Under the pieces are notes generated by a model. That model worked only from the letters and a program-made list of their open reading frames with translations. It was not told the origin of the DNA and ran no database searches. Below, piece after piece: positions 25,305-56,829 of a stretch of 64,000 nucleotides of DNA; the stretch's first letter is position 1, and every line of letters starts with the position of its first letter. Source of the stretch: Pseudocercospora fijiensis CIRAD86 (taxonomy: Eukaryota > Ascomycota > Dothideomycetes > Mycosphaerellales > Mycosphaerellaceae). Location of the stretch: contig NW_006921532.1 of assembly GCF_000340215.1 (NCBI RefSeq), positions 10,515,764 to 10,579,763 on the forward strand, given 5' to 3'. A program made the translations under genes and the position numbers.

Positions 25305-25312
25305 CTTGCAAC
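25305..25312. repeat. Left 8-bp target duplication of the hAT element
   Basis: CTTGCAAC, matching CTTGCGAC at 47147-47154 with one RIP-type difference. Eight bases is the hAT-specific length. Confidence 0.85.
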
Positions 25313-25455
25313 TAGACCCCGTAGTAGTTCGGTTTCCGAACTACCAAACGTATATAGTTTGGTTTCTTAGCGGCGAACCAGCTCCCTAGTTCCGGTTTGG
25401 TTTTTTCGAACTATATAGATTCCTAGTTTAAACTAGAGACTGTATTAGTTTTACT

Positions 25456-25762
25456 ATAAGGACACTCTTATTCGACTGCCGGCTACGATTGCCGGCTATA
25501 ATAGTAACTCTGTTACATTTACTACGCTCTTTTGCCGTTGCTAGGGCGTAGTTGCTGTTGCTAGGGCGTAGTTGCTATTGCTAGGGCGTGGTTTTGCTAT
25601 AAGGACACTCTTATTCGACTACCGGCTACGATTGCCGGCTATAATAGTTACTAGGTTGTATTTACTACGCTTTATTACCGTTGCTAGGGCGTGGTTGCCG
25701 TTGCTAGGGCGTAGTTGCCGTTGCTAGGGCGTAGTTGCTATTGCCGGGGCGTAGTTGCCGTA
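25456..25762. repeat. hAT left-end minisatellite and duplication
   Basis: GTTGCTAGGGCGTAG-type 18-bp units occur in two blocks (about 25540-25592 and 25673-25762). Each block follows a copy of the string ATAAGGACACTCTTATTCGAC...GCCGGCTATAATAGT, so about 135 bp were duplicated. Confidence 0.75.
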
Positions 25763-25889
25763 GTTGCGAAAGCTTACCTATATAACGTTACGTAGGCGGC
25801 AACAATTAGGGCTTCGCGATATTCTTATACTTTCAACTTCTTCCTCTATACCTATACCGATAACAACTACTATACGCTACGCCCCCGCC

Positions 25890-26230
25890 CCTTTCCCTTA
25901 TAATAGTAAGAGAGAAGCGCGCCGCGCGCTAAATAGAAGATAGAACTAAAGACCGCGAGTTTGTTTTACCTAAGCGTCTAACTAAAAAGCGCAAGACTAA
26001 AGAGGAGTACTCTATAAAGAAGAATTCCGTACGAGACCGCGAGAGAAAGGATAAGATAGATAAGGATAAAAGAGCTAAGGATAAGAGAAGAAAGGCGCGG
26101 AATAAGGCATTCTATCGATAGCTAGCGCCTATAGAAAAAAGTGAAGGTTAGAATAAGAAGATAACCTAAAAGAAGGCTAAGAGGAGGAAAGAATTGCGGC
26201 TAGTTTTCGAGCGTAAAGTTCTAGTAGCGT
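25890..26230 (+). pseudogene. Lys/Arg-rich frame in the hAT element
   Basis: Reads LPKRLTKKRKTKEEYSIKKN, later RDRERKDKIDKDKRAKDKRR, with few RIP stops. It ends near a cluster of GCCGGCA/TAGCCGG repeats at 26240-26300. The highly basic composition fits a nuclear or nucleic-acid-binding region. It may be the first exon of the next frame, with the repeat cluster in an intron. No domain recognised. Confidence 0.35.
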
Positions 26231-26324
26231 AAGTCAATCTAGCTAGCGGCCGTAGCTAGCAGCTATAGCCGGCAGCCGTAGCCGGCAGCTGTAGCCGGTA
26301 TATTTTTCTTTAATACGTTAACTA

Positions 26325-27400
26325 ATAGCATTCAGACCTATAGCCGCTACCTCTATCGATACGACCGATAGTAACGGAGATATTTAGATAGCCGAGAACA
26401 ATAATGCTAGAGTTTAGGATGCCGCGACAGAGCTTAATACTACGAATAAAGGAACTGAAAAAAGCGAGGAGATACTATACGTCGATCTAGTAACAGGTAT
26501 AGTCTTAGAGCCTAACGCTATAGACGATAAGCGCTAGGAGTGGATCGAGTATAGTTAAAGAGACGAGATACTAGTAAAGGGCTAAGGTATAAGTCCTATC
26601 AATCTAGAAAATTATAGTTAAAGCTACTACGAAAAGCTAGCAAGGATTGGAATCGAGACTAGTCGTCTTTATATCCTCGATATAGAGTAGAAGTTTCTTT
26701 ATTAGTATTAGAGCGAAGCCTTTGCGTCTATAAAGGCAAAGTAGCTTACGATTAATGCGATCGGGGCTAGGTATCTAAGGACGGCAGAAGTGTTACTATA
26801 GGAGGAAGGGGTACAGGTAATTATTCTATACTCGGCATATATAGCCGGCGTTCGTAGCCGGTAGATACTAATAGTTAAATAGAAAGCGTTTCTCGAAGGT
26901 AGAGTGCTACTACTATATGAAATCTTTACTAAGGCAGAGAGGGCTTGTATCCGGAATCTAAGCTACTAGTAGGATAGGTTAGCGTTAGAATTCTCTAAAT
27001 CTCTATATAAGCCTCCGAAGGATTACCTATTTCAGCGATACGGCTTTATCTCGACTACTCCGTAGGTACCCGAAGAAGCTCGAGCGCTCTTTAAGGTCTT
27101 TACTAAGAAGCGGAAGGAGTTTAAGGATTAGGATTAGTTAATAGAGCTGTTAGTTAGTCTTAGGTTTCGTAGTTAGACTCGGCCTAAGTATTTGCTTGTC
27201 GAGTGTCTTATACCGAAAGAGGATGGATTAAGACTGAAAACGAGCTTAGATTCGTTAGGTATAGTAGCTCGGTTCCGTTAGTAGGAGAGAGCCGCCGTAT
27301 AGAAGGCAAAATTCAGGTAGTTAGGGTAGCTAGGAAAGAAATTCTAGTAGTTAGGCTAGCTAGGGTAGCTAGGAAAAAAAATCTAGTAGTTAGGTAGCTA
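26325..27400 (+). pseudogene. Unrecognised long frame in the hAT element
   Basis: Plus-strand frame with TAG/TAA only: EEILYVDLVTGIVLEPNAID, RIGIETSRLYILDIE, YLRTAEVLLQEEGVQVIILY, KSLYKPPKDYLFQRYGFIST. About 300 codons can be followed, interrupted by a short GCCGGCGTTCGTAGCCGG insertion near 26838-26863. No recognised family; probably cargo or an N-terminal part of the transposase. Confidence 0.35.
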
Positions 27401-27539
27401 GGAAACAAAAAAAAAGGTAGCTAGCTATTTACTGCCTAGCTGTTCCTAACGATACGATACTATAAAAGAAAGGGTGTTTCTCTATAGCTACTAGTACACA
27501 TCTACTACTCCTAAGTCCTTACCTTACCGTACGAAACCT

Positions 27540-28215
27540 TAAAACATGCCGACCGATATTGTATATATACTAGGCGCTACACTAGGAAGGGTAATAACGA
27601 GACGATAGTCGAAATAGTCTAGTATACGAGCGAGATTGCGACAACGTCGAGAGGAGGTCGTATACTTACCTTTAAGCCTATCGAGTCCTAGACTACGATT
27701 AGGGCTAGATTCATCCTCTCCGAATCCTAGTAGTAGGAATTCATTATAGGGTACTACTACCTAGTCCTTACCTTTACGGAGTCTAAGTAGAAGGTTGTTC
27801 GGAGATATAAGAATATCGAGTATTAACCCGGAAATCTTCGAAAAGGCTAGCTAGGCGTATCTTTAGAAACCCGAGTATATAGAGCAGTTCAATTAATAGG
27901 TCTATAAGATATAGTTCCCTTTATACTTACGTTCGAAGGAGTATAAACTCCGGAAGTACTCGATGCGATAGGGGAGTAAGGAGCGAACGGATACATTCTA
28001 GAAGTTCTTTATAGAGGGGGCATTGTACCGTTATACGACTTCTCGACTTAAAGGTTAACTAGTAATTGTCTATAACTTCTACGGTTCAATCTTAAAATAC
28101 CCGAAACTAGGGGATAGGAACTTATCGCCTACGAACTATCTCTATTCTAAACGGTATCGGGAATCTTAAGGAGAGAGGAGAGTTAATATAGATATAGCGT
28201 TCTAGAAAGAGGTAT
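27540..28215 (+). pseudogene. Unrecognised frame upstream of the hAT transposase core
   Basis: The later part (about 27840-28215) reads KPEYIEQFN, VYKIQFPLYLRSKEYKLRK, TDTFQKFFIEGALYRYTTSR. The earlier part changes frame, so introns or indels exist. A GCCGGCTATAG repeat cluster at 28228-28277 separates it from the transposase core. Confidence 0.3.
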
Positions 28216-28329
28216 ATCTTCTAAAATGCCGGCTATAGCTGCCGGCTATAGCTACCGGCTATAGATTCCGGCTACCTAAATCAACCGTAGAGATCTAGCT
28301 AATTATTATAGGCTACGCTTAAGGAAGCT

Positions 28330-28710
28330 CTAGGATTAAAGGCTACCGATTTCTCCCCCGAAGACTTTAAGTAACTAGCAAACGAAATGCTAGCTATAAA
28401 CGGTCTTCCGGAAGACTTCTACGAAAGGGAGTCTATATAGAAGACATACCTATATCTTATAAACTACCCTCCCCTATTTCTCGGCGCGATAACCTAGCGT
28501 ATTATATTCGAAAAGAACAAAGAGGCTACGTTAGACGACATTCGGGAGATCCTCCGTAATACTCGCTAAGTAGCTATTACTATCGATAGCTAGTTAAGCC
28601 GGACTATAAGAGCCTCCTTCCTCTCGATTATGCTATACTTTATTAATTCGGATTAGAAACTCTAGGAACTTATAATCGGATTCCCTAAAATTCTAGGTTC
28701 CTATACTAGT
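28330..28710 (+). pseudogene. hAT transposase, N-proximal catalytic part
   Basis: One frame reads TLDDIREILRNTR, then VAITIDS*LSRTIRASFLSI and FINSD*KLQELIIGFPKILG. This matches the hAT pattern around the first catalytic Asp (TxDxWss....aitaHfID.dwkLq). TAG sits where Trp is expected. The frame breaks at 28710 inside GSYTS, where the gypsy element inserted, and resumes at 40981 as KDIAKL. Confidence 0.8.
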
Positions 28711-28988
28711 AAAGGACGGAAACTAACACTACTACTACTACTTGTAGCAATAGTATAGGCTACCGAGGGTAACATAACCTATAGCAATATAGGCAGCTAT
28801 GTTTAGCAAGATAGGATAACGAGACTGTCGCTTAGGCTAATAACTAGAGCCCTGTAACATAGGCATTATAGAAGTGTGATATAAACAATGTGCTATACGA
28901 GGTTGATAATCTATCTACAATGTAGAAGGAGGCCTCTTATATAGGCTCAAAACTAGCCTATAGGTGTAGGGCCGGTTACTAGCTAATA
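28711..28988 (-). repeat. 3' LTR of the 12.3-kb element
   Basis: 278 bp. On the element strand it begins TATTAGCTAGTAACC (TG changed to TA) and ends ...CCGTCCTTT. The purine run GAAAGGGAGGGA just inside (28989-29003 region) is the likely polypurine tract. Confidence 0.9.
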
Positions 28989-29117
28989 TCCCTCCCTTTC
29001 TTCGTATCTAACTAGACACGCTTTACATTGCGCGCTTAAAACAAACATGTATACATTCTTAGCGTTCTTAGCTAAGGCCATTTTTAGAACTCCGTAATAA
29101 TACCCCCGGGGTAGCAT
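28983..29117 (-). CDS. 44-codon ORF4 starting on the UAAUG at the end of ORF3
   Basis: ATG at 29117 overlaps the ORF3 stop (TAATG). The frame runs MLPRGYYYGVLKMALAKN..., includes a CKACL stretch, and stops at TAG 28985-28983, six bases inside the LTR. It has no internal stop although neighbouring genes carry many. Its first seven residues equal those of pol because both are encoded by the palindrome. It could be a real small protein or a by-product of the stop-start signal. Confidence 0.4.
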   Translation of the reverse strand: MLPRGYYYGVLKMALAKNAKNVYMFVLSAQCKACLVRYEEREGY

Positions 29118-29119
29118 TA
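29095..29119. promoter_or_regulatory. Palindrome at the ORF3/ORF4 boundary
   Basis: TAATAATACCCCC-GGGGTAGCATTA on the plus strand; on the element strand TAATGCTACCCC-GGGGGTATTATTA. It holds the ORF3 TAA and the ORF4 ATG as TAATG. Confidence 0.8.
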
Positions 29120-31912
29120 ATCCTAGATACTATAACTATATAAAAACAACTTCCTAAGCAATACTATATAGACCTACTATTGCTTCAACGCGCCGTAATC
29201 CTTACTAGCAATAACCTTATCTACTAGTCGGTTCTCGAAATCTCCTCCGCATGCGTTAAAGCTATTAGCACCGAAGTACTATCCCTCGTAGAAAGCTTAA
29301 TTAACGAGGAGGTTAGTAGCCTTTTCCTTCGTAGCATTCTCCTAATCGTATAGATATTCCTTAAGTCCCTCGTTATTAAGCTAGAGGATCTGTTTAACTT
29401 CGTTCTAAATAACGTAACTTAACTAAGGAATCCTACTAACTAGGGCGTCGGAGATGCAACTAAGGCCTTCGACTAAGATAGCGGTAGGGAAGGGGAACGG
29501 TACGAAGGTATTCGAACCTAGAAGGGCGGTTAGATTGCGGTACGCCTTAGCAACCTCGGCGACGGTTAAGTTGTCGTAACCCTTAATCTTAGTACCGTCG
29601 ATAACGCGAGAGTAGCCTAGGTTAATTAATATACGGTTGCTCTTAGTCTTTAGATTACTATATAGTAGGTATAGCATCTGAATAGAGACTTCGCACTCCT
29701 TTAGAGGGTTGAGGATCTACTCCGCCTTACGCCCCTTACTATTAGGCTAACTATCGAATATATAGTCGAGGTCGTCGTCGGTGAGGTGCTTGTTAGTAAG
29801 CTTGCCGATCTTGCTTAGCGGGACTAGGCTACGAGCCTTAAGCTTCTTAACCTAGTTCGCAAAGACCTCGGGCTAATATATACCTTCGATAATAGTAGAG
29901 CAGCTAGTCTTATCCTTAGACATAAGACAGACCTTAATGCGTAGGTAACTAGCACCCTCGCTAGCTGCGAGCTTAACTATATCTTGTCCGAGACGAGTAG
30001 ACTCCTTAAAAGGATAGTTTTTATAAGTACCGCTAACCTTAAAGAACTTAGTAGGCTTAGGGACAGAGATAAGCTCGTATACGTAATTAGGTCGAAGGGC
30101 GACAGTTAAGAGCTATAGGGCAGGGTGCTAGCGGACGATTTAGTTGCTTATACTATAAGTTTGAAGGGTATTACGGCCTTCCTACTTAGACTTAGGTATC
30201 GTACGTATATACTAAAGGTATATTTTAAACTCCTCTTATATTAGGTCGATAAGGAAAGGAAGATGTGCTCTACGAGGCTCTTGCAACTAGCTAAAGACTT
30301 AAGGGAAGATAGCATTGCTAGTCTAGCGAAAGCGGTCGAAGGAAGTGCCTTAGCTAAGGATGCCGGTAACGAACTTGCTCTAGCGATCCGTTAGTATAAG
30401 GGCGCGAGTAATAGTACTAGTAGGGTTAAACGCGTAGAGTCCTAGAGATATCGGGGCGGCAATAGGGCGTCTAGGAAACTAGTTAGTATAGGCCTAATTA
30501 GCCTTAAGGGTAGCGAAGGCGTCTTAATTAGGAACCTCGCGACTAATCTTTAATAGGCGGCCGACGAGGACAATCGCCTTAGCACTAGTATAGAGACTAC
30601 AGACCTTAGCGGCCTTCTTAATATAGTTAGCACATATAGAGAACGGCTCTTCTCCTAGCTTACTAAGGTCGTCGAGCTATTAATAGATAGATAGGGCGGT
30701 AGGAGCTTTGCCTATATCGGCTTTAAGAACTATATCGATCTTAGTAATAAGGTGCGTAATAGAGTCGCCCTTGTAAGAACTATAGATGTTCTTAGTTAAT
30801 AGGATCGGCGAGAGCCCTCTATCTCTACGCTCGCTAAAGGAGCCTTCGGAGGAGACATCTTCTAGTAGTATATCTAGCATGTCAACATCCGAGTTACTAT
30901 AGTTAGTACTATAGTTAGCCCTAGAAGGGGCGCTGTACTTCTTAGTAGCCTTACGGAGGGCCTAGCGAGTATGCAATGCCTTCTTACGCGCTGCTTCGGC
31001 CTTAGCGCGCTCGTCCTTAACTTCCTAAAAGACCTTACGGTTGCGGGTCGAGCGACGGTCTTAAGCCTATATCTCCGTAGCGAGCGCGAGACTAGCAGCC
31101 GTATCGGCCTCTATTTCTAGGCGAAGAGCCTTACGTTTAAGGACATTAACGATAGGAGCCTCTTAACCTTTAATAATAAAACCTGCACTATTAATACGAT
31201 AGCCCTTCTCTTTTAGTAGATCCTTAGTTGTCTATATATTAAGATCGATCTAGACAATTGCATCGTAGTGCCGCTTCTAGTAGGATGTCGTAAAGTCGTT
31301 AAGCGTAAAGGACAAGTTAAGTAACTGCTTACCTACCTTCTTACTAGCGGTAGACATACGATAGATTATAGTGCGGGAAAGGTGCTTAGCGCCTTAACGA
31401 CGGACCTTGTACTTGTTAACGAACGAAGAGACCTGCTTTACACGCTCTTATCTACCGTAGGCGAAGTTAATAAGGCTTTTAGGAAGACTACTTAGTCCTC
31501 CCTAATATTCGAAGGCCTAGTCGAGGGTCTTAAAGCGCAAGCGAATCTAGGTGCCGGCCGTCTCGAGGCTATAGACGATAGGAAAGGCTTATTCGATATC
31601 TATATCGTTAAGGACCTCGCGCTTAAAGACACGCTTACCGATAGACTAACGCAAGTTGTTTATACCGTACGTAACTAAGATAGCAGCCTTCTTAATGTTC
31701 CTATTAATAACGCGTAGTAGGGTGCGAGCGTTCTAGATCTTCTCTTAAGGGTCTTTAAGGGCGGTAACGATCTAGAAGCAGTGCTCGAGGCTAGTTGTAG
31801 CAGCTAAGGCGCTATCGGAGGGGGCTTCGATCGGGACTAGTACGCCTAGGTTTAGGGCTAGTAGGTTGCTGCTACTACTAGCGCCTAGCGGATTTAGGGC
31901 GCCGGAAGACAT
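29117..31912 (-). pseudogene. ORF3 of the 12.3-kb element, unknown function
   Basis: ATG at 31912 to TAA at 29119-29117 is 932 codons in one phase. The only interruptions are TAG/TAA at likely Gln codons. The N-terminus is MSSGALNPLGASSSSNLLAL. A basic, Ala/Glu/Arg-rich helical region, possibly coiled coil, lies near residues 300-340 (KDERAKAEAARKKALHTR). Well-preserved blocks occur at 30880-30680 and 29677-29423 (NLTVAEVAKAYRNLTALLG). It sits where env lies in other gypsy elements, but I see no signal peptide or membrane segment. No family recognised. Confidence 0.75.
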
Positions 31913-32334
31913 CTTAGTCGACCGGAGCGGAAAGGAGTTAGTAACGAGCTTGCAAAAACGTTCGTAGCTTGTTAATAATAATTAAAGGGTTTAGATAGAA
32001 GAGGGGGGGGGTAGGCGGTAGTAAGTTAGTTAGTGCTCGAGTAGAAGAAAGAGCTTAGAAGGCTTGCCTTAAATAGGGTACGAAGGTAGCGTAGTCCGTA
32101 TATTCCGGTAAAGCAAACGGATAACGATTATATATAGACCCTAAAAAGTGAAGCTATATACGAGACTCCTTTATTAGTAGGGCGGCTAAAGTTTGACAAT
32201 CGATCTAGCTAATTGCTAGTAGCGACTACGCGCCTTTGTTAACCTCTAGCTTTCGTAGATTCCCGCGTACTCGAAATGTAACTAGTCAGTTCGAGTACCT
32301 AGTAGTAATCTATAGTAGTAAGGCTAGCGGGACT

Positions 32335-32361
32335 AATAATACCCCCGGGGTAGTATTAGCT
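32335..32361. promoter_or_regulatory. Palindrome in the pol-ORF3 spacer, ORF3-proximal
   Basis: CTAATAATACCCC-C-GGGGTAGTATTAG, arms of 13 with one mismatch. It lies about 420 bp upstream of the ORF3 ATG, in the same orientation as the sites at 29095 and 36778. Confidence 0.8.
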
Positions 32362-32457
32362 TTTCTCTAGAGATGCTCGGCAACTAGGAGCAAATCGCCT
32401 AGGCCTAGCGTAGCTTATATTAGCCTATAGCACTATCGTTATAGATGTAGTATCACC

Positions 32458-32464
32458 TTTTATA
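32458..32464 (-). promoter_or_regulatory. Possible TATA box for ORF3
   Basis: TGCTATAAAAGGTG on the minus strand, about 545 bp upstream of the ORF3 start and between the two spacer palindromes. It could support a separate ORF3 transcript. A motif alone is weak evidence in A/T-rich DNA. Confidence 0.3.
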
Positions 32465-32761
32465 GCAGTAGGTATATAAACGTAGCCCGTGCGTTCTTCT
32501 TTCTTCTAGACACTAAGCTTAGCGGCCTAAGGTCCCTATTCTTAGAGGCTATAGGCCTAGGTTACTACGTCTATCTAAGAGCTAGGAAGGGAGAGGGATC
32601 CTCCCTTTCTTAGTATCCTACGTAACTAATACTAATTAGGGCAGGAACAATCTCTAGCAGAGTACCTTGTTATCGTTGCTACTTAAGGGTAGTTACTAGA
32701 GTCTAGGAACCTAGAGGGAAGTAGTCCTAGAAGGGTAGAGGGGTTAGGTTCGGCTATCTTC

Positions 32762-32794
32762 CTAATGCTACCCCCGGGGTATTATTAGGAAAAC
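32762..32794. promoter_or_regulatory. Palindrome in the pol-ORF3 spacer, pol-proximal, inverted
   Basis: TTCCTAATGCTACCCC-C-GGGGTATTATTAGGAA, arms of 16 with two mismatches. Orientation is opposite to the other internal sites, so the 400-bp spacer between 32361 and 32762 is bracketed by inverted copies. Confidence 0.8.
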
Positions 32795-33054
32795 ACGCCT
32801 CGTACAGTTCTATCTAAAGAAACAAGAGCGAAGGAATAAAGTTATAGTAACATTAATCGAAGGTAAAGGCAAAAGCAAAAGACAATAATAGGATAAACTA
32901 AAAGCAACAAACGAGAGTATAAACATTAGTAGGAATAGATAATAGGTAAGGACTAAAGGTATAGGGCGGCACTATATTAATAGCGCGGAGAACGATCGAT
33001 AAGAGCAAGGAAGCAACGTAGTAGAGGCAGGTAGAGGCAAGGAAGAGCAAGCAG

Positions 33055-36000
33055 TTATTTAGTCTCGGGATCTAGCTATAATTCTAGGCGGTCTTCGTCG
33101 CTAGACTAGTTAGGTTCCTCGGAGTTAGAGTTAGATAGCTAGAAGTCTAGTTCACTATTAGAATCGGAATTAATATCGGAAACGCTCTATATATAGTTAA
33201 TCCGTATATAACCCTCCCTCTGTTCTTAAGTTATTCCTAATAGCTTACTAAGACGAACCTAGGGATAGGCATAGTTCTTAGGTAGAACAGGATCTATAAT
33301 AGCGGCAGAATCCTCTTCCCGATAGGTATCTAAGGACGGTAGAGGGTCTATAGAGGCACTAACTTCCTCCTCGGTCGGCGGAGAGCGGGTAGGTTCGCGT
33401 AACTTAACGATCTTCTTTAGATTAGCCCGAGGGTAAGAGTGCTTTAAGGTAGCACTATCTAGCTCCTAAAGAAGGTATACGGAACCCGAGTAAAGGACCT
33501 CCTTTACTCTATAAGGACCCTTCTACTTAAAGGCTAGCTTATAGGAGTAACTATACTCTAGTTCGGACCGGTATAGAAGGACTATATCGCTAACCTTTAG
33601 AGGCTCCTAGTTAATAGCATTATAGTCGTCGAAATACTGCTTAGCCTCCTTACGAAGGCGACGTTGTCGAGCAAGTCCCTCCTAAGAAGTAGTAGTTATA
33701 TCCTTAAGAGCCTTAGCGCGTAGGGTAAGGAGATCTGCTCTAGTACGAACAGACCCCTAGTCGTAAACGCTATGCGTACGGTAGGACAACTTAATCGGAA
33801 GAACGGCGTCCCTTCTAATTATAAGCTCCGCTAGCGTAAGTCTAGTCGTGTCGATAATAGTAGTTCGATCCGCCTAGAGAAGGGCTAGAACGCGGGTAGA
33901 GATAGGAACGGATCTGTCGCTACTATTAGTTATCTTAGATAGGGCATTAATTAACGACCGATAGCCGCGCTTAATAATAGCATTCGACTAGGGATAGTAC
34001 AGGGAGATACGAACGTTCTTAGCCCCGTACGAAACAAGTAGCGCTTAAACCTCCTTAGCTATATTGTTCGTAGCGTTATCTAAGATAACCTCGTAAGGTG
34101 TTCCCTAGCGGCAAAACAGATCCTTAAACAGGAAGGTAGCTATATTACGGGCATTAATAGTACCGCAACCCTTATAGAAATAATAGGCCTCCGGCTATCG
34201 AGAAAGACCCTCTCGAATAATATATAGGCTATTATTGCGGCTAAGATAGACCCTATCGCTATACTACCGCTCCCTAACTAACTAGGTAGTAGGGATACGT
34301 AGCTCTCCTAGACGCCGGTAGCTGTTCCTAAAGTTGCACTTAGGATAGCTCTTATAGTAGCGGGAGACATTAGCTTATACGCCGTCCTACTAGTAGCGTC
34401 GACGAAGGACATCGAAGGTGCCCTCCGCCGCCCGGTAGCTAAGCTTATCGTAAACGGAGCGAAGGATTTCTTATCGGGCTGCTAGATCGTTAATAATACG
34501 CTAGAGCGGTACATTAATTATAGCCTATCGCTAAAGGATGCGATCTTTAACAAGGAACCTCCGAGAATAGCGAATAATACGACGGTATTAACTCCTTAAT
34601 AGACTAGGAGCTCTCTTCGTATAGGTAAGGAAGTAGGCGATATTATAGGAGTCGTCGGAGTAGACCCTATTAAGGATATTATCCCTACCTAGTTCGCCCG
34701 CCTTAGCATCGTCCTAGTCCTCGCCGTTAGTAGTAGGGTCGTCGTTAGGCTAGTTACTAGGTTAGTCGTCGGCAGTAGACCTAGTAATTACCGGCATAGC
34801 GTTAATATAGAAGGTAGTAAAGAAGGTGCGGTTAATAACCGCGTCGACATCCTCTTCTTCTATTATCTCGGCGATGTCTTCCTCTATAGTAGGCCTTCTA
34901 GAAAGGCTATCCGGTCTAGTATACTTCTTACTAGGAACATAGAAGACGTCGAAATTAAACAAATAGATCTAGGCAACCTACCGAGCTATCGTAGAGTTAG
35001 GTAGGTCGGAGGCTATACGGTTAAGTTAATAGACTAGCGTCTAAGCGTCGACTTCTAGGCGAAAGAACACTCTAAAGAGCTAAGGTCGGAACTTCTTAAG
35101 AGCCTTATAGACACTAAGGCACTCTCGCTTACTAGTATCGTATCGGGCCTCGATAGGTTTCTATAGACCGGACTCGTACCGGATAGGGTAACGTAAGGAG
35201 GGCTCCTTATAATTATACTGCATTAGTATCTCGCCGTAGCCTTCCCCGCTCGAGTCGACAGCAACAATTAGTAGACCTGCGCCTTCCGAGTAGTTAATAG
35301 AGGTAAGCGTAGGCGCGCTAACAAGTGCCTTAGTAACCTTGTCCTTAGCGGCTTAGTAAACGGAGGTCTATTTAAATTCTATATCCTTCTTAAGCAAGGC
35401 GTATAGAGGCTTGCATACTAGCGCAAAGTTTTCGACCTAGATGCGGAAGTAGGAGACTACTCTAAGCTAGATCCGGACATCTTTCTAATAGGTAGGGTCG
35501 GGCTAGGACACAATCTTTAGGACCCGTACGTTATTAGGATAGCGGCCGTTCTTATTAGTTACAAACCCGACAATGTTCATTCGTTTGTATAGGAGCTAAA
35601 GCTTCTCCCTATATACCGTTAGGTTGGCTCGCTCTAGGTCGTAGAGGACACTATCGAGGTTCTAAATGTGTTCGAGAAAGAACCTACGGATACTAGGCTC
35701 TACTAGTACTTCTTTATTGTCGTACCTAGTTTTAGGGCCCTTAATACCGATGTCGTCGAGGAAAGGCATCGCTATATAGGAGATATAGGCCGCGAGGACT
35801 TAGTTTATAATACGAACGAACTAGGCTACGGAGTTAGTTGCCCCTTATAGAAGGGTAGTTTGTCTATATAGCCTAAGAGGTATCTCGAAACTAGTAAGGT
35901 CGCGGCTATTAGGATAGAGAGGGATCTAGTCGTAGCCCGAGAAAACATTAACTAGTAAGGCTATAATATAGTTAGCAAAAGCTTCCGAGAACCTATTAGT

Positions 36001-36798: not shown

Positions 36799-36801
36799 TA
36801 G
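36778..36801. promoter_or_regulatory. Gag/pol UAAUG stop-start inside a palindrome
   Basis: On the element strand the protease frame ends ...IRAPS then TAATGCTACCCC-GGGGGTATTATTAG. TAA closes gag-protease and the overlapping ATG opens pol; the pol frame is confirmed by its multiple-of-three length and by the RNase H open block. The palindrome can fold as an RNA stem beginning at the stop codon, as in known termination-reinitiation signals. Confidence 0.8.
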
Positions 36802-39800
36802 CTCGGCGCTCTAATTAGTTAGTTCGGACTCGGGCTCGGGTAGATCCGCTTCCGGCGGCGATGCCTGCGATAGTATTATTACCGAGATTCGTGCACTAGG
36901 TAGTCGTTATACTATTATGCTCGCTATCGCTTCGAGCATTCGTCTTCTTAGTGTAGAGCCTAGGAACTAGCCTTATCGTACGGAGCGGCGTACCTCTAGA
37001 TATAACCTATTTAAGCTATATTAACTTATAGCGCAGATTGCCGGTCTTATAACCGCGCTATAGCGTTTCCCGAAGAGCGCTTAGAAGCAGTAAGGATATC
37101 CTCGTAGGACTTGCAGCTAGTGTTTCCGATATAACTAGTAAATACGACTCGGTTGCCTTTCTAGTTAGCGATAGTTCCTTCCTAGGAGCTATCGTCGCAG
37201 TTGCGCTAGATACCCCGGGTTATACGAGACTATAGACGACCTAGAATAATTGGCGTATTCGGGTTAGCGGCAATCTAGAAGGTAAAGGAAAAGCATATAC
37301 CGAAAGCGTCTACTATAACATTATAGTAGGCACCTACTAGCGTAACCTCCCTATTTACTCCCTATATGCTAAGGGAAATATCTCTATTTATTAGCAGTCG
37401 GAGCTGTTTAGCCTAGCGCTTACTTATAATAAGTAACTCTAAACTATTATCAAGTATTGCTAGCAACTACTAACTATAGCTTCCGATAGTAACTTAAATA
37501 TAGATAGCGGGAACGACGGCAAAGGAACGGGTAACTACGGAAAGGTCTACATTATTAGGGATAGAGTAAAGTTCCTTAGGTCGAGGAGGTCCTACTCGAC
37601 CGATTTATTAGCTAGTAAATCGGACAGCCTTAATAGAAACTAAAACCGAAGCAGAGTCGGTATTATTATTATCCCCTCGGCCTATCTCCTTAATCCCTTC
37701 TTCGTTAGTATTATCGATAGTCTCCTAGCTCTCGTAGGTTACTAATTCGCCTTCTGCTAACTCCTAGGCCCCTAAAAATTCAGGAAGGAACTATAGGGAA
37801 GAGACGTCGATATAGTCCTCTCGCCCCTATTTGCGTCGGAGGGCTACAAGGTCTTTTATAAAGGTTGCATCGTTAGGAATCCGGCTCTAGAACAGGTTAG
37901 TAGGCAAACCGTATACTAGAAGCTCCCCTATAGACACGTTAGACTTGAGGTCTAGGAACTATAAAGCCTAGAAGAGAGCATTTGCCTTTATATCGTAAGA
38001 GTTAGTAGGCCCGGCACTATACTTCTTTATATACCTATTAAAGCGAAAGCTCTTTAGGTCGGCTAACTTTCGTTTGTAGGCCGGCGGGTTAGCTAGGCCT
38101 AGGGTACTACTAAGGTCGGTAGTAGTATCCTCTATATCGATATCCGGAGTCTCTAGGACCTCCGGAGAGGCTATACTAGCTCGGGTTGCACGGTCTTTAG
38201 CTATCTAGAGTGTCTTAGTCTTAGCGACTAATTCTCGCTGTTTCTTAGCCTTATTAGCTGCCTGCTTCTTAAGTATCCTAGTAGGGGCTGCCGTACTAGG
38301 GCGGGTAGGGTTCTACGGGCTCTTACCCTTGCCCTAGGACGACTAGGTTTAGGACCTTGTAGTAGCGTAGACATCTATACTGTTCTTAGTAACCGCGTAA
38401 ACATTAGTAACTGCGTCCGGGTCCTAAGATACAAAGTTGACTTTAATAGGCTTAGTAGTACTATTACTGCTCCGCTCCTTAACCTGTTTTGCCCTAACCT
38501 TCTAAGTTTCTCGTTTAGCAATAGCAGCGAGGGTACTATTCCTAGTATCCTTAAACTCGATCTTGCTACTATACTTCTTCTCTAGAAGACTCCTAAGTTG
38601 AGGCAGCTTCGGAGCTCTACGATCCTACTCGAAGTTAATCTTATCGCCGGTATCGGTATAGTAGAACCGACTATTTACTTATATAACGAGCTTCCTCTTA
38701 AGAAGCTCCTTCTAGATAGGGTAGTCTAATTAAACATGTTTGAAACCGCCGTATATCTAGCACTTGCTATCTAAGTTAGAATAGATCTTTCGTATAGCGT
38801 AGACGTTAACTAAAGGGGCCTTAGGGTAGTTAGGATCGGAGACCTAGTAGACTAGTAGCACATCCTTTAGTGTGCTAGCGTTAAGGACCTCCCTAACTCG
38901 CTATAGTGCTTTCGTATTAAGGTTGAGCTAGGCTAGGGATTTAGCTAAGTCCGCAACGTCCTAAGAATGCTTAGTAACGGTAGGAGTTACGGTACTAGGA
39001 CTACTTTGCGATTTAGGAAGAAACTTAGGCCCTCTAGTTCCCGAGGCATCGTTCCTTACCTAGGCTAGGTTATTCCGGTCCTCGCCGTAAATGAACTTCT
39101 TTGCGTTAGCGGAGCTATTAATATCGTCCTTAATAGCCTCTAGGACCTCTTTATACTTCCTAAAGGTCTCGGGATTGGCTTCGCTAAGCTTATAGCGACG
39201 GAAGATACGCTTAGCCGTAGACTACGGCACCCTTAAGGAGTAGTCTCGTTCTCTAAGAATTCTCGAGGTCCTACTAGTCGATGCCGTCCGCTAACTTAAT
39301 AAACTCGCGGACGTACTCCTTTAGGTCGTTATCTTCGGTGCGCCTCTCTATATAGAGGTTCTTAAGCTACGTACGACTGCCTTTAATACGACGGCTATCG
39401 CGATCCCGATACTCCCTTATAAAGGCCTATTTGAAGACCTCCTAGTCGGTATTAGACTTGTCGTCCTTTTCTAGGTAGCTAACTAGGGTTCTAAGGGTTC
39501 GGTAAAGCTTAGTAATAGTAGTCCTCGTAAGGGACCGGACCTTGTACTAGTCCGACTCCTCTTCGAGTCCGTACTCGGCTAAGTTGTCCTTAAAGCGTTC
39601 TACGTGCGCCGTAGCGTTCTACCCTTCGAACAAAGGGTTCCTACTGCTTCCTAGCTCTAGCGGGCGACGCCTATTCTAACGGAGAAGGTTAGTTTGCCCT
39701 TAAATTATCTTTATAACGACATTATAGAGGGCCTCGGGCGTAGAAGGCTCGATAGCCCCTAGGTCGACGGCGCTTATAATAACTAGTCGTCGCCTGATTT

Positions 39801-39879
39801 CTTCGTTAATAGGGTCCGGTAGGTTATTAGATTCCGAAGATTCCGCTAATTCGTAATACTCGCTTTTGCTAGAGCTTAT
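36798..39879 (-). pseudogene. gag: Gag and protease of the 12.3-kb element
   Basis: The gag part near 39800-38900 reads RRRPLELGSSRNPLFEG, AHVERFKDNLAEYGL and EYVREFIKLADGID, a retrotransposon capsid-type sequence. Upstream an ATA at 39879 (ATG before RIP) gives MSSSKSEYYELAESS. The 3' part (about 37400-36800) includes PNTPIILGR, fitting a retropepsin flap and C-terminus, and ends at TAA 36800-36798. The two parts lie in different phases, so a frameshift signal, intron or indel lies between; I did not locate it. Confidence 0.75.
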
Positions 39880-39993
39880 TCGATTGTTATAAAGTAGTTG
39901 AAATAAAATACTATAGGAAAGTGTTTTTAGTATATATTATAGGTTTGGTTTGTTTCGATATTACTATGCGAGAAAATAGTGTGCTAGGCTGTT

Positions 39994-40028
39994 TTCTTCT
40001 AATGTTACCCCTAGGGTAGCATTAGAGT
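39994..40028. promoter_or_regulatory. Palindrome in the 5' leader of the 12.3-kb element
   Basis: CTAATGTTACCC-CTA-GGGTAGCATTAG, the leader version of the boundary palindrome, about 130 bp upstream of the gag start. It also contains an ATG on the element strand. Confidence 0.75.
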
Positions 40029-40032
40029 TTAG

Positions 40033-40064
40033 CCTCCTAGGGGTCGCCTAGACACCCCTAGGAG
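40033..40064 (-). promoter_or_regulatory. Second hairpin in the 5' leader
   Basis: CTCCTAGGGGT and ACCCCTAGGAG form a perfect 11-bp stem around a 9-nt loop (CGCCTAGAC), next to the leader palindrome. It could act in packaging, dimerisation or translation control. Confidence 0.65.
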
Positions 40065-40697
40065 CTTTAATTTAGTAAATTTAGACAAAAGCCGCTCGGA
40101 GGAAGGAACTGCAATCTCTATTTATACCTAGATCCTAGAAACTAGCTACTTTACTAACTATTATTATCTCCTTTAGCTAGGCGGGGGGCGGGGACCTTCT
40201 TTTTCTAGTAGAAGGCTAAGTACTGTCCGAACGAGGTAGCGAATCCCGAAGTAATCTACCCGGTCGATAGGGGAACTATCTAGGTATCCGACCTATAATC
40301 TAGAAATTGCTATCGTATAGATAGTCTTAGCAAACTAAGTAAGGCCGATAGGTAATTAGTCTATCTCCTCCTTAGGCGGGCGGTAGCTTATCTCGAGCAA
40401 GCGGTGCTAAATAGGTCTTCGACCTAGAGCCGAGTCCTTAGAAGCTAGCTATAGTTATAGACTAGGCCCTAAGCTGTAATAGTCCTAAGGGTTTGCAGCT
40501 TTTCGGGGTTAAAGCGATGCCCTCGTTAAGAGGTTCCTCTGCTTGTCGTAATAGCCCCTTAAGATACTTCTATATCGTCTATATCGTAGGCTCTTATCGT
40601 GCCCTCGCTTCGGTTATAGCTATTCGTACCTAGAGACCACCTTTAATATACCCGAACCTGTTAGATATAAAGAGATGGCCCTACCTTCGGCTCTAAT
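40065..40697 (-). other. 5' leader of the 12.3-kb element
   Basis: No coding frame followed. The bases next to the LTR, on the element strand ATTAGAGCCGAAGG, are the expected primer-site position. GGCTCTAGT inside the LTR pairs with eight of nine of them, so self-priming is possible but uncertain. Confidence 0.5.
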
Positions 40698-40975
40698 AAA
40701 GGACGGAAACTAATACTACTACTACTACTTATAGCAATAGTACAGGCTACCGAGGGTAATATAACCTATAGCAATATAGGCAGCTATGTTTAGCAAGATA
40801 GGATAACGAGACTATCGCTTAGGCTAATAACTAGAGCCCTACAATATAGGCATTATAGAAGTGTAATATAAACAATGTGCTATACGAGGTTGATAATCTA
40901 TCTATAATATAGAAGGAGGCCTCTTATATAGGCTCAAAACTGGCCTATAGGTGTAGGGCCGGTTACTAGCTAATA
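40698..40975 (-). repeat. 5' LTR of the 12.3-kb element
   Basis: 278 bp, co-linear with 28711-28988 without indels. The duplicated CTAGT follows at 40976-40980. Confidence 0.9.
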
Positions 40976-40980
40976 CTAGT

Positions 40981-42930
40981 AAGGACATAGCGAAGCTTAT
41001 CTATACGGTAATAGATAGGGTTAGCGTAACAACGAAACTAATCTCGATTACTGCGGACAACGCTAGTAATAATCGAACATTATATAAGGCGTTATATGTA
41101 CAATTCACTCGTATATGTCTTTAAAATCACTAATTGTATCGATAGGGTCGAGTGCGTAGAGGAGATTATAAGGTCTACAATCTAGCTTAATCTTCCGAAT
41201 ATTAAGCTCGCTACGATTCCGGATACGTACGACAATACGCACGATAATAACGATAAAGAGGAGCCTATTAATAGCCCTAGCCCTATTGAATCGGAGCCGA
41301 CGTCGTTGCTAGTTGCATCCCTATAGAAGTTTCCCTACCTCGCTTATATAGTTTAAATCGCGATCCGAGCCCTCTTTAAGACGCTTAAAATTGCATTATT
41401 AAACGACGACTAATAGAAGATCCTAGATAAGGATAAAGCAAAGTCGAAAGTCGAGAAACTTATTATAGTAATAAGACGGGATAAGGTAGAGAGCCTCGCT
41501 CTCGTTTTGTATAAGGTATAACTTTTGTCCGTAGCCGGTACCTATAGCCGGTAACCTAGTATAGTTCTAACTCTTTTTCTCTAGCTTCGTCGTCTAGCAA
41601 TATATACGAACTCGAGCTTATAGAGATATAACCGATTCGAGGCTATTTAAAAGAACCTAATCGAGCGCCCTAAAACCGATGCCTAGAATATCGCATAGAA
41701 TAAGCGATAGCAAAAGCGGCCTCCTTAGCGCCTACTCCGTTTTACCTAAGACGTTAAGACCCGGTTCGATTCGACTTTCTATATAGTTACGAGGGGATAT
41801 ACTTTACGTACCGCTCTCGAGATCTATTAGAGTTCCGAGGGTATTAAGTAGCTCGGCCTTACCGCCGCCGAATAGCGCTAAGTAGAGTATCTCGTCGATA
41901 TTAGTAAGCATTACGCGAAGGTTACTGCTACGATTAGAAGAACCCGAGGACCGACGATCTACCTTGTCTTTACGTACTATAACTAGCTCTTTAACGAGCT
42001 CGAGGAAACCGTAGCTAAGCTAGCTAAGAAGAGCGTTCCCTAGAAAGTAGCTATAACGAAAGCTATAGACACCTCCTATACTAAGTTGTATAAATATTAT
42101 AGTGCTACCTTTAACTCGTTCGGGGATATCTATAGCGTTGCGTACTTGCTTAACCCGGTAGAAAAGGATATATACTAGCAGAGGCCGGAATAGAAGGCGG
42201 ACGAGGTATAGCCGAAGCATTACTAGACTATTCTAGAAAAGATATTCTACGAGCGTCGGAAAGAAACTAGTCTAAATGCAGCTCCTATAAAGAAAAAGAA
42301 GGTTTAGAAGGCTCCGACATTATACCTGTTTCGTAGGTAGGAAGTAGAGGTAGAAGAGGAAGCAACTACTAAAGTAAATAAAGAAGAGTTCGATCTCTAT
42401 CGGCGCGCGAGTAAGTATAAACCCGTAGGCTCGGAAAGAGGGCTAATAATCTCTAGATCTTACCGGTCTTCTAGACGAATTCGGAGACGATATTCTCGCT
42501 ATATAGCAGCGGTTAGAGCCTAAGTTTCTAACGATAGCGTCGGTCGCTCGGGACGTCCTCGCTATCCCGAGCGTAGATATAGGCTATAAGAGGTCTTTTA
42601 GTATCGCTCGTTACTAGGGCCGCTTTAATCGAATATACTCGCCTACTACCTTCGAATCTATTATAGTATTCCGATACTATCTCCTCTACTAGAATCGCTA
42701 AGGTAGGTTACTAAAGATTATACTAAAGGAGTTAATCGAGGAATTAGAAAACCTTAAGATCGAAGAAACCTAGGAGCGCGAAGAGAATGCGAAATTTAGT
42801 CTAAGCGAAACCCTAATTAGCGATAACGAAGAGGAGGAGGGCGGAGGTAGAAGGCGATACCGGGTCGAGAAGCGGAAACGTATATAGGCTTAGAGCAGCT
42901 TTAAGGAGACGAAGCGTTTACGTATAAGGT
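40981..42930 (+). pseudogene. hAT transposase, C-proximal part with dimerisation domain
   Basis: Continues directly from 28710: KDIAKLIYTVIDRVS, LISITADNASNNRTL (second acidic region). After a degraded stretch follow DVKTRFDSTF, LTAAE.....EYLVDISKHY, GPTIYLVFTYYN.LFNELE, KYYSATFNSFGDIYSVAYLL and finally FPTIASVARDVLAIPSVD with SFSIARY. This last block is the hAT C-terminal dimerisation pattern. Stops are almost all TAG at Gln or Trp positions. Assignment to hAT is secure; the subfamily is not resolved. Confidence 0.88.
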
Positions 42931-43243: not shown

Positions 43244-43885
43244 ATGTCTCCTTACGATTATATACTTATTAATTTTCTAGGTCCTACCGATATACCCTCG
43301 TCGCCTAAACGCGCAGATAAAAATCTTTAGAGGCTAAAGGGCAAGGGTAAAGCAAGCTAAGTATAGGGAGACCGTAGCGAGAACGAGATATCGGAAGAGC
43401 AAGGCTCTCCGTAGTATATACGAAGGAAGGGGGTTCCTCGGAAAATAGTACCGAAAAATAAGAAGGCTATAGGTAGATAGGAGAAGGCTAAAAAGAGTAG
43501 GCGGACGAAGACTATCGCGAAGAAAAGTTATCTTTCTATTAAAAGAAAGGGAATAAGGTAGGACTCGACGATAAAGAAGCGGCGCTTTAAACTAGGTACT
43601 ATTGCCCTTCGCTAGATCCGGCTTTTCTAAAACAAAAGAGGGACCGAGCTTTTAATCCCTAAGACTCCCTTCTAGCGACTCGTCCGAGAAATTACATTAG
43701 ATTTTCGGTCTAGTATGCGATTTACGGCTAAGGCGATTAGTACTCTTTAGGAAGCTACGGAGGCATTTCTCGTAACCGAGCTTAAGCTTTTAAACCTCCT
43801 TACTATCTATACGAAGCGGGTTACTCTTCAAAATAAAGATATGCAGCTTCTAGCTAAAATTCGGCGTCGGTTTACAGCGGATTAG
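43244..43885 (+). pseudogene. Histone H3-like gene 1, copy C (best preserved)
   Basis: ATG at 43244 is in phase with the H3 fold; about 214 codons. Residues 1-108 are a Lys/Arg/Ser-rich extension much longer than the tail of canonical H3. The fold then reads KKRRFK.GTIALR, TELLIPKTPF*RLVREI, RFTAKAISTL*EATEAFLV, IYTKRVTLQNKDMQLLAKIR. Spacing equals canonical H3 through the loop 1 and alpha-2/alpha-3 regions. The divergent tail, NLL in loop 2 and an end in RRRF rather than RGER suggest a variant, perhaps CENP-A-related, but loop 1 is not lengthened. RIP stops inactivate it. Confidence 0.82.
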
Positions 43886-43889
43886 TTAG

Positions 43890-45160: not shown

Positions 45161-45177
45161 ATTCGACGACTTTTATA

Positions 45178-45850
45178 ATAGCGAGTCTACTTAACTAAGT
45201 TACGACGCCTCGCAAGAAGGGACCTAGTGCTTCTACGGGTCGTAATAAGACCGGAAATAGTGGAACGAGCATAGTATATTAACGTAAGAGGGCTGCTACT
45301 GCTACCGCTAGCTCCGGTGCTAGAAAGGGCGTCGCGAGTAAGGCTCCGCGTAAGACAACGGCGGGTAAGGCTCTACGTAAGACGACAACTAGCGCTTCTA
45401 CTACTAGTAGCAATCGTACGAAGCGTCGATAGCGCCTAGGAAGTAAGTCCTATTTATAGCCGGTAGCGTAGCCGGTAGCGTAGCCGGTAGCGTAGCCGGC
45501 ATTCTTACTATCTTTTTACTAATCCTTCTTTAGCCGTAGCCCTCCGTAAGATTCGGTAGTATTAGAAGAGTTCTTAGCTCCTAATCCGTAAAACTCCTTT
45601 CTAACGACTTATTCGCGAAATTGCCTAGGATTATAGAACGGACCTTCGCTTCTAAGCCTCCGCGATAGGCGCCCTTTAAGAGGCTATAGAAGCCTACCTA
45701 GTTCGTATCTTCGAATGTATGTTTCTCTTCTACCTCTTTTCGGACTATACTAATACTATTTTAGCGGTTAACCTTATAGCTATCTACGCGAAGCGTATAA
45801 CGATTATAGATAAGGATTTTAAAGCACTCGATTAGATTCTAAAAGGCTAG
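45178..45850 (+). pseudogene. Histone H3-like gene 2, copy C, with two introns
   Basis: Exons about 45178-45442, 45534-45716 and 45765-45850. The tail contains ASKAPRKTTAGKALRK, an H3-type ARK/K-rich motif, after an extra Ser/Thr-rich start. Intron 1 (GTAAGT...TTTACTAATCC...TTTAG, 91 bp) splits the GT-VALR site: splicing joins ...RLG to TVALRKIR. Intron 2 (GTATGT...ATACTAATAC...TTTTAG, 48 bp) splits loop 2: splicing joins FE to S-VNLIAIYAKR, equal in length to the canonical FEDTNLCAIHAKR. The fold ends KDFKALDQILKG-like. The start is ATA (ATG before RIP?) and uncertain. Confidence 0.83.
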
Positions 45851-46234
45851 AATGTCTATATTCGAGACGGTGCTAGGTAGGATAGATATTCTAGTAGAAA
45901 GGATGTTCGTAGTGTTATCTGTAAGCTTTTCTATATGCGAAATGAGCCGCTGTTATACGGCGCTGCATACCGCGCTCTAAATACTCTCTAAGCATATATA
46001 TATAGTATAGTATACTTTATTAGCCGTACGGAATAGAAGTCTCCCAAAATCCCGTTAGTACTAAGGAGTAAAAAGGCCGGCTACGCTGCCGGCTACGCTG
46101 CCGGCTACGCTACTAGCTACGCTGCTAGGTTTTTTAAAGAACTAAAAGAAGATAGATATTCCGGTTGATTTGTATTAGTTTAGATTTTTATAAAAAGAAA
46201 ACAGGGAAAAATAAGGAAGGTTGAAGAGCCTAAT

Positions 46235-46740
46235 AGTTATAGTTATAGGCACTATCCCTGTTTTCTAGAGCATATTATACACCTGCCTTCGCAACTCTAC
46301 CTAATACTCCCTCTAAATATCCTTATACTCTACCTACTAAAAATTCAACTAGGTACCTAGACCTATAGCTACCTCTATATCTTTTACTATCTTCTATAGG
46401 TTAAAGGCCTCTTCTATAGCAGCCTCTACCTCCTTATATAATACGAAGTCACTACCTGCCCTACCCTTTATATCTCCTAAATAACTAAGAGTTCTAAGGA
46501 ACGAACTAGCATTCGGCCTTAGTATAGCGAGTAACTAGTAGAACGTTCTATAGAGCTGCCTTATAGCTCTTTTATATACTATACCGATACCGAGGGAGGA
46601 GCTATCCTAGTACTTAATGTTATCGAATAGTTCGGTAGGAAAGTGTATAAACTTTTTAAGGAGGAGGACTTCTAGGGAAATCGATAAGTTCTACCTAGAT
46701 CTAGATAAAGACATTCTGCTAAGCAGTTAGGGAATTGAAC
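46235..46740 (-). pseudogene. Unrecognised reverse-strand frame at the hAT right end (copy C)
   Basis: Minus-strand frame with only TAG interruptions: SSSLGIGIVYKRAIRQLYRT, LLAILRPNASSFLRTLSYLG, AGSDFVLYKEVEAAIEEAFN. It is conserved with copy B at 19040-19545 and converges on H3-like 2. Helical and charged, it ends near a short inverted repeat (ACAGGGAAAAA / CCCTGTTTTC). Function unknown. Confidence 0.45.
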
Positions 46741-47146
46741 CGTAAACGAAAGGATGAAATTCATACCTAAGGAGTACAGTTTCCGAACTGAACTATAATG
46801 CCTTGTATGTATATATGTATGCTTTTAATTGGTTAGTGCCCTTAGCTAATTGTCTATAGATTTAAGGTTATATAAGTACCTTTATACAACTACGTAGCCT
46901 AAGTAGGATTCGAAAATTCTATAAGTACTAAGGACTAAAAATGCCGGCTACGCTGCCGGCTATACTGCTAAGTCTTATAAAGGGCTTGCTTGAAGCTACG
47001 TATACATTCGTACACTTCTTAAAAACCGATAAATTATATAGTTCGAACTAGCTACTTATATAGTTACTTAGCAAACCAACCCAAACTAAACTAGAGTTTC
47101 GGCTTAGCAAACCAAACTAAACCAACCCGAACTACTGCGGGGTCTA

Positions 47147-56776: not shown

Positions 56777-56798
56777 TATTACTATTAAGGCCTAGTAC

Positions 56799-56822: not shown

Positions 56823-56829
56823 GCTAACT

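Follow-up and report, generated by a model that had tools for sequence, protein, structure and literature searches.

A RIP-mutated hAT element, probably of the Pseudocercospora fijiensis H3-hAT family, whose second histone H3 gene appears to retain introns

The window, by which we mean the whole 64,000-nucleotide stretch of Pseudocercospora fijiensis CIRAD86 DNA that was analysed, very probably contains a copy, disabled by RIP, of an already described high-copy hAT family with a resident pair of histone H3 genes, the second of which (H3-2) apparently carries two spliceosomal introns. The core finding, that H3 genes were captured by a hAT element, is already in print (PMC6710886). Our addition to the account of the family is that H3-2 appears to retain introns, a reading drawn from alignments of its copies that revises the capture history published for the second H3 gene.

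A hAT-type element interrupted by a retrotransposon

An earlier note on this DNA had proposed a single hAT-type element with matching 20-bp termini and an 8-bp target duplication, and comparison of the ends bears this out. The terminal inverted repeats (TIRs) begin with TAGACCCCG at position 25313, the inverse ending at 47146, and contain one mismatch in their first 20 bases; the target-site duplication (TSD), CTTGCAAC/CTTGCGAC, is identical at 7/8 bases, and the sole difference is one transition. An 8-bp TSD and short TIRs are both as expected of the hAT superfamily. Seven un-nested relatives were examined, five of which (L018, L025, L030, L017 and L014) have perfect TSDs by end comparison; the TSD of L012 matches at 6/8 bases, and L016 is truncated at its 5' end. 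The nine-letter terminus motif is uninformative by itself: allowing one mismatch it has 14 matches, where 16 would be expected by chance. The un-nested relatives are ~9.5 kb long, whereas the nesting of a 12.3-kb LTR retrotransposon brings the window element to 21.8 kb. The features of the element are:

25305..25312, no strand: left target-site duplication, CTTGCAAC (end comparison)
25313..47146, plus strand: hAT-type element carrying RIP mutations and a nested LTR retrotransposon (TIRs, TSD, 9.5-kb relatives)
25313..25332, plus strand: 5' terminal inverted repeat (end comparison)
26415..27332, plus strand: reading frame full of stops, no assigned function (coordinates transferred from L018)
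27492..28705, plus strand: 5' portion of the hAT transposase coding region, in several frames (coordinates transferred from L018; codon signal)
28706..40975, no strand: nested LTR retrotransposon, interrupting the transposase (LTR pair and empty-site join)
40976..42851, plus strand: hAT transposase coding region, 3' part (sub-threshold Pfam match, motifs by eye, codon signal)
47127..47146, minus strand: 3' terminal inverted repeat (end comparison)
47147..47154, no strand: right target-site duplication, CTTGCGAC (end comparison)

The nested retrotransposon is delimited by an LTR pair (28706-28988 and 40693-40975, 95% identical). Inspection by eye shows a direct repeat of at least 5 bp on either side of it, and the 40-base empty-site join across it matches L018 and L030 at 38/40 positions and L025 at 37/40. 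The transposase that the earlier note assigned to the hAT type is backed by a strong codon-position signal (third-position changes 86/168) and by hAT-like motifs recognised by eye, but its profile evidence falls short: the Dimer_Tnp_hAT matches reach 13.3 and 13.0 bits, under the curated Pfam cut-off of 21.4, and we describe positions 42489-42608 as a dimerisation-like region. No Pfam match at the curated cut-off was obtained for the transposase, DUF659 was not returned by Pfam scans of stop-masked frames, and a database search that scored 7989 candidates gave no match at E 0.001. Third-position changes in the additional frame at 26415..27332 number 28/69, an excess that is not significant (p 0.13).

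Two divergent H3-type genes within the termini

Two genes of distinct H3 type had been proposed downstream of the transposase, and similarity searches recover both. Using canonical H3 as the query, tblastn matched 43481-43864 (E 4e-25) and 45536-45823 (E 2e-23), as well as a tail piece at 45301-45393 (E 0.001), while the Pfam profile PF00125 matched two stretches within one stop-masked frame (E 3.3e-38), indicating a core histone fold. The gene features are listed below, where the start coordinates of H3-1 and H3-2 need not be the true gene starts:

43454..43885, plus strand: H3-1, divergent H3-like gene (tblastn, Pfam, protein and structure-sequence searches)
45199..45442, plus strand: H3-2 exon 1, H3-like tail (copy alignments)
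45443..45533, plus strand: predicted H3-2 intron A, 91 nt, GTAAGT...TTTAG, phase 1, containing a 12-bp minisatellite
45534..45716, plus strand: H3-2 exon 2, helix N to helix 2 (tblastn, copy alignment)
45717..45764, plus strand: predicted H3-2 intron B, 48 nt, phase 1, GTATGT...TACTAAT...TTTTAG, corresponding to the published '16 AA insertion'
45765..45862, plus strand: H3-2 exon 3 (copy alignment; provisional 3' end)

In PDB sequence searches both genes align with H3 over the tail and the fold. A comparison with CENP-A had also been suggested, and CENP-A identity of the element genes is not supported, as the best 60 of 176 matches to H3-1 and the best 60 of 179 to H3-2 are all H3, with no CENP-A among them; a tree that groups H3-1 with two CENP-A sequences is 11.5 log units worse (p-AU 0.07, short of formal rejection). 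Both genes are nevertheless distinct from canonical H3: the best listed database proteins are 47% (H3-1) and 58% (H3-2) identical, H3-1 has a 2-residue insert ahead of helix 1 and no intron seen across its aligned codons, and the C-terminal end of H3-2 has diverged. Database searches for intact relatives yielded only H3-type proteins (among the best 120 of 583 matches, and among 55 in another search). An H3-like protein from Rutstroemia sp. (P0173) has LLIPK-PF, RFT and an RR end in common with H3-1 and groups with it in the best tree (support 78/76, both branches long); it scores 104 bits against the H3-1 profile, where the host H3 scores higher, at 119 bits.

RIP and the arrangement of copies

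Across the 73.9-Mb genome, 148/150 scored PF00125 places (of 772 candidates) contain stops; of the two stop-free places, the one on C6 is the host H3 and the one on C5 is a CENP-A-like gene. Comparison of four full main-family copies with one another over 9.5 kb gives 284-334 transitions and 0-13 transversions. The RIP indices are 1.87 / 0.31 for the element, and the host H3 locus has 0.55 / 1.36. H3-1 and H3-2 occur in identical order in the main, B, C and D subfamilies, in keeping with the earlier proposal that they are part of the mobile unit. Both genes are present in all of L003-L030 (in L022 the locus ends within H3-2), a biased count, as these 28 loci, representing 26 distinct places with two taken twice, were picked from H3 matches; L031-L048 are short H3-1 pieces only. 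The two partial copies, A and B, that the earlier note reported to share this gene order are real, but they lie head to head with two 3'-type termini (5574 and 19917), and copy B holds parts only of both H3 genes. They are separated by a probable further LTR element (8802-15983), and no matching TSD was found for their composite at its site in the window.

Drift or retention of the H3 genes

The earlier note held that two divergent H3 types in one element spoke for retention rather than chance, an argument that the indels favour and the codon positions do not. In a scripted count of merged indels, 11/13 in the H3 exons are divisible by three, versus 29/103 between genes (p 1.3e-4). The proportions are 8/9 versus 8/26 for shared indels, 3/4 versus 21/77 for private ones and 16/19 versus 31/118 when indels are left unmerged, and 5/10 indels within intron A are divisible by three. 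The preponderance of multiples of three in the exons suggests that the H3 frames were kept while the subfamilies split, with the reservation that four of the H3-2 indels lie at the repetitive tail, where the repeat-unit length could itself yield multiples of three. By codon position, H3-2 has no third-position excess (25/73), and this test detects no amino-acid constraint; third-position changes in H3-1 number 12/31. A lineage test on H3-1 used 20 lineages with 28 informative and 66 singleton sites, and its informative purine/pyrimidine sites number 7, 10 and 11 by codon position. Pairwise transversion tests on both genes were too weak to be used.

On one account, which we judge close to an even chance, the H3 genes hitch-hike as passive cargo and drift neutrally. 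The even codon positions of H3-2 and the 7, 10, 11 distribution in H3-1 are consistent with drift, as is the H3-2 exon transversion rate to L014 (4-11%), which is similar to that of the between-gene DNA (8.8%). Against it stand the frame-preserving exon indels and the presence of the pair in all four subfamilies. Within H3-2, moreover, the region from helix 2 to helix 3 has changed at 7/66 sites at codon positions 1-2 versus 9/33 at position 3 (p 0.044, uncorrected), and H3-1 is slower than the between-gene DNA (2.9% versus 8.8% to L014), although the non-coding ends of the element are also slow (0.4% and 2.2%).

Alternatively, the variants may have been kept because their products aided escape from silencing or changed the chromatin over the element's own DNA, which we consider unlikely. 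The same exon indels would fit this proposal, and in the main-family H3-2 tail lysines are retained at positions equivalent to K9, K14, K18, K23 and K27. Position 1-2 changes in the H3-2 core concentrate in loop 1 and the beginning of helix 2 (14/30 versus 23/130 sites; p 0.0015, uncorrected, in a region picked post hoc), but this rate is not clearly above the local third-position rate (14/30 versus 5/15, p 0.53). The proposal is further weakened by the codon positions, with an excess absent in H3-2 and none shown in H3-1, by the repetitive setting of the four tail indels, and by the loss of part of the tail motif in subfamilies B and D. The frame-preserving indels make the question of whether transposons use their own histones answerable by intact copies from sister species together with RNA.

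Predicted introns in the second H3 gene

For the published 16-residue insertion in H3-2, the best reading is an intron of 48 nt in phase 1 (intron B). Its removal gives the exact H3 length, with FESVNLIAIYAKR for FEDTNLAAIHAKR. Intron B is gap-free in 27/27 rows projected on L018, without an indel inside it across 15 pairwise alignments, and its 3' end, TTTTAG, is kept in all 27 rows; the 5' GT is intact in just 10/27 rows and in 0/8 rows from the older subfamilies, where AT takes its place, a change compatible with RIP but no proof of it. Intron A begins with GTAAGT in 10/10 H3-2 rows listed by a pattern search, which missed the L008 intron, where the 3' site is CCTTAG. It varies from 67 to 116 nt among copies (three lengths were set by hand, and an exonic GTAAGC upstream was not used as a start), several of these lengths are not divisible by three, and LGTVALRKIR is restored once the intron is taken out. 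Intron 2 of the host H3 gene is also of phase 1 and lies one codon upstream of the intron A site; since there is a ~7% chance that one or both of two introns would fall no more than 3 nt from a host intron, homology between the two is suggestive only.

In the published view, a single captured H3 transcript or retrocopy was the source of both genes, and the second acquired a 16-residue insertion by mutation. H3-1 agrees with this in being continuous where the host gene has intron 2 (in the diverged H3-1 tail, the position of host intron 1 cannot be located), a clade of H3-1 and H3-2 is not rejected (p-AU 0.42), and exon-exon junctions were recovered in PMC6710886 after that study's own deRIP. 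A processed retrocopy lacks introns, however, and H3-2 looks unlike one because of its predicted introns A and B, the former one codon from host intron 2: both stretches have splice-site and branch-like motifs, their removal restores H3 length, and one varies in length by non-multiples of three. A tree that clusters H3-1 with host and yeast H3 is also 13 log units worse (p-AU 0.059), and overall we regard the published view as improbable.

Independent later insertion of H3 segments into the window copy is hardly credible and is rejected for the copies examined, as the gene order is common to the subfamilies and H3-1 lies at the expected distance in all 32 copies checked out of 40 seeded by the 5' end (24 listed, the window element itself and 7/7 fetched), a set that is a fair test for H3-1 alone; the same termini without H3, which the earlier note would have counted against its proposal, were thus not seen in those 32.

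For the intron-retaining reading, we envisage an active phase in which the hAT transposase, acting on the TIRs, would have moved the whole unit by cut and paste, with the two H3 genes carried along as residents. Because it has two predicted spliceosomal introns, H3-2 would have been captured in the form of genomic DNA and not as a processed transcript, unless its introns were gained later. The frames were probably retained during subfamily splitting, after which RIP would have disabled the copies and the LTR element inserted into the window copy. A fuller version gives the two genes different origins: H3-2 would have been captured as genomic DNA from an ascomycete H3, and the divergent H3-1 would be akin to the Rutstroemia protein. 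Each would have stayed in frame as a functional histone variant belonging to the transposon, and loop 1 of H3-2, a region that helps to target CENP-A, would be evolving fast. This version strikes us as distinctly unlikely.

Comparison with known H3-carrying elements

The P. fijiensis H3-hAT family of Dhillon et al. 2019 comprises 784 H3-like copies and 3 Mb, or 4.1% of the genome, and its members are 9.5 kb long with a 20-bp TIR, an 8-bp TSD and two H3 copies, the second 16 residues longer (PMC6710886). The window element is most likely one copy of this family, matched by described features rather than by consensus sequence: it shares the un-nested length of ~9.5 kb, the TIR and TSD lengths, the H3 pair, a second H3 that is 16 residues longer if read through, RIP stops and hundreds of copies, and the host H3 on contig 6 here corresponds to that on scaffold 6 in PMC6710886. 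The two accounts differ in that the 16 residues are an insertion there and an intron here, alongside another intron, and in that the transposase contained only DUF659 there, whereas we find a weak dimerisation-like region and no DUF659 in Pfam scans.

The P. fijiensis hAT consensuses have no nucleotide similarity to the Pyrenophora tritici-repentis element (PMC6710886). That precedent, which the earlier note named, does exist: the H3L hAT described by Manning et al. 2013 (PMC3538342) resembles the window element in that its TIRs enclose an H3-like gene plus an additional reading frame. As described there, it differs in its size (5.6 and 2.3 kb), in having one H3L gene, and in that most copies are near-identical and open.

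Ends of the element and a nested retrotransposon

The 20-bp inverted termini that an earlier note had described for this RIP-mutated hAT element are present at 25313 and 47146 with one difference, and the claimed 8-bp target-site duplication (TSD) is found around 25313-47146 with one transition. By itself the nine-letter terminus motif is no evidence, with 14 matches at one mismatch or fewer against 16 expected; the boundaries rest instead on the greater length of the terminal match, on the TSD and on relatives elsewhere in the genome, seven of which were inspected for their ends (perfect TSDs in five, 6 of 8 bases in one, and one truncated at its 5' end). A pair of direct repeats (28706-28988 and 40693-40975, 95% identical) marks a 12.3-kb LTR retrotransposon nested inside the element, which accounts for the 21.8-kb span. 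When the 20 + 20 flanking bases are joined, the resulting empty site shares 38 of its 40 positions with each of the un-nested copies L018 and L030, and 37 with L025. Without the nest the element would measure ~9.56 kb, and the main-family copies L018, L025, L030 and L017 measure 9.52-9.54 kb.

Upstream of the transposase lies a reading frame (26415-27332) to which no function is assigned. GCCGGC is found at 26 sites in the element (L018 114-9642) versus a single one in 27.6 kb of other DNA from the window. These sites are often paired, 12-13 bp apart, lie largely in introns and between genes, and are possibly transposase-binding or intron-forming motifs.

Two histone H3 genes of possibly separate origin

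The two genes downstream of the transposase are as follows.

H3-1: 43454-43885, no intron over the aligned codons, two-residue insert
H3-2: 45199-45862, main-family tail keeping lysine at the positions of K9, K14, K18, K23 and K27

The H3-2 tail is 27 nt longer in some main-family copies, and 27 nt are missing there in subfamilies B and D. Searches of solved structures gave ordinary H3 as best for both genes (among the 60 rows listed of 176 for H3-1, and the 60 listed of 179 for H3-2), and the matches listed in database protein searches were H3-type proteins only, with best identities of 47% for H3-1 and 58% for H3-2.

H3-1 and H3-2 form two clades in a tree of 30 rows, and joining them as a single clade is not rejected by the topology test (p-AU 0.42). 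Placing H3-2 with yeast H3 and host H3, the ordinary gene on contig C6, equals the free tree (p-AU 0.55), and the same placement of H3-1 is 13 log units worse (p-AU 0.059). H3-1 groups with the Rutstroemia protein P0173 (support 78/76, long branches on both), which falls below host H3 in score against the H3-1 profile. Separate origins for the two genes are a possible reading. P0173 is an intact, divergent H3-like protein with odd residues in common with H3-1.

Predicted introns in H3-2

A 48-nt stretch of H3-2 between 'FE' and 'NL', predicted intron B, reads GTATGT...TACTAAT...TTTTAG, and its excision leaves exact H3 length. It is gap-free in 27/27 rows projected on L018, indel-free in 15 pairwise alignments, and closed by TTTTAG in all 27 rows. 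Its first GT is intact in 10 rows and AT in the other 17, including 8/8 older-subfamily rows; RIP offers an explanation, short of proof, for AT at this 5' site. Predicted intron A, upstream, reads GTAAGT...TTTAG in all 10 H3-2 rows matched by pattern search (L008 not among them), holds a 12-bp minisatellite and is 67-116 nt long. It splits the codon one after host H3 intron 2 in identical phase. Coincidence with a host intron site has a likelihood of ~7% by chance. Dhillon et al. 2019 (PMC6710886) read the 16 extra residues as mutation and the gene as a transcript or retrocopy, an account against which the H3-2 sequence argues.

Presence of H3 and selection on the cargo

A set of 40 copies (of 695 candidates) was found via the 5' end only, and 32 of these were looked at for H3-1. 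A histone match lies at the expected distance in 24, and beyond the nested retrotransposon in the window copy; H3-1 sequence was also reached at each of seven fetched places, over 300 nt in five of them and over 39 and 88 nt in the other two. No copy with the same termini and without H3-1, the case named in the earlier note as speaking against the cargo, was seen among the 32.

Transversions are unaffected by RIP. Third positions hold 86 of 168 in the transposase (p 1.4e-6), 12 of 31 in H3-1 and 25 of 73 in H3-2, a share that differs from the transposase for H3-2 (p 0.017) and not for H3-1 (p 0.24); because of these counts, H3-2 gives no sign of codon-level constraint. Its position 1-2 changes pile up in loop 1 and where helix 2 begins (14/30 versus 23/130, p 0.0015, region picked post hoc), where third positions are high too (5/15). 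After merging by script, 11 of 13 indel events in H3 exons have lengths divisible by three, versus 29 of 103 between genes (p 1.3e-4); the figures are 8/9 versus 8/26 for indels in at least two rows (p 0.005) and 3/4 versus 21/77 for private ones (p 0.08). Several exon indels fall in the repetitive H3-2 tail, where unit length may favour multiples of three. The earlier preference for retention over chance thus gains from the exon indels but not from the codons of H3-2, and since the two kinds of evidence point opposite ways, support for retention by selection is mixed.

Amplification and RIP

Pairwise, the four full main-family copies differ by 284-334 transitions and 0-13 transversions over 9.5 kb, a pattern pointing to a late burst and subsequent RIP. 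A count of 73-76 transversions sets L016 apart from them, and L014 (subfamily B) and L012 (subfamily C) differ from L018 by 279 and 489. The element scores 1.87 on the RIP product index and 0.31 on the substrate index, and the host H3 locus 0.55 and 1.36. The best matches to L012 (at least 84% identity, 11 including itself, among 40 listed) all lie on C11, C12, C17, C20 and C23, smaller contigs that are perhaps accessory chromosomes.

Copies A and B (5574-19917) are real partial copies, as had been claimed, but their arrangement is head to head, bounded by two ends of the 3' type and without a matching TSD. Eleven genome places including the window are at least 97% identical to the H3-1 region of copy B, and because the inverted partner adjoins in 11/11, the composite itself was amplified. 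Two related probable LTR elements lie in opposite orientation at 8802-15983, inside copy A, and at 51069-58124.

Comparison with published elements

A PF00125 profile search of the genome (73.9 Mb, 30 contigs) gave 772 first-look candidates, and 148 of the 150 scored contain stops; the two stop-free places are host H3 and a CENP-A-like gene on C5. The H3-carrying hAT finding is real and already published: Dhillon et al. describe this family in Pseudocercospora fijiensis as ~9.5 kb long with a 20-bp TIR, an 8-bp TSD and two H3 copies 16 residues apart in length, all RIPped, and report 784 H3-like sequences and 3 Mb, equal to 4.1% of the genome, with host H3 on scaffold 6. The Pyrenophora precedent named in the earlier note is Manning et al. 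2013 (PMC3538342). Within the literature as retrieved, a search for later work found no further publication on the P. fijiensis family. As far as the consulted text of PMC6710886 and PMC3538342 shows, the intron reading of H3-2 and the indel pattern are additions to both.
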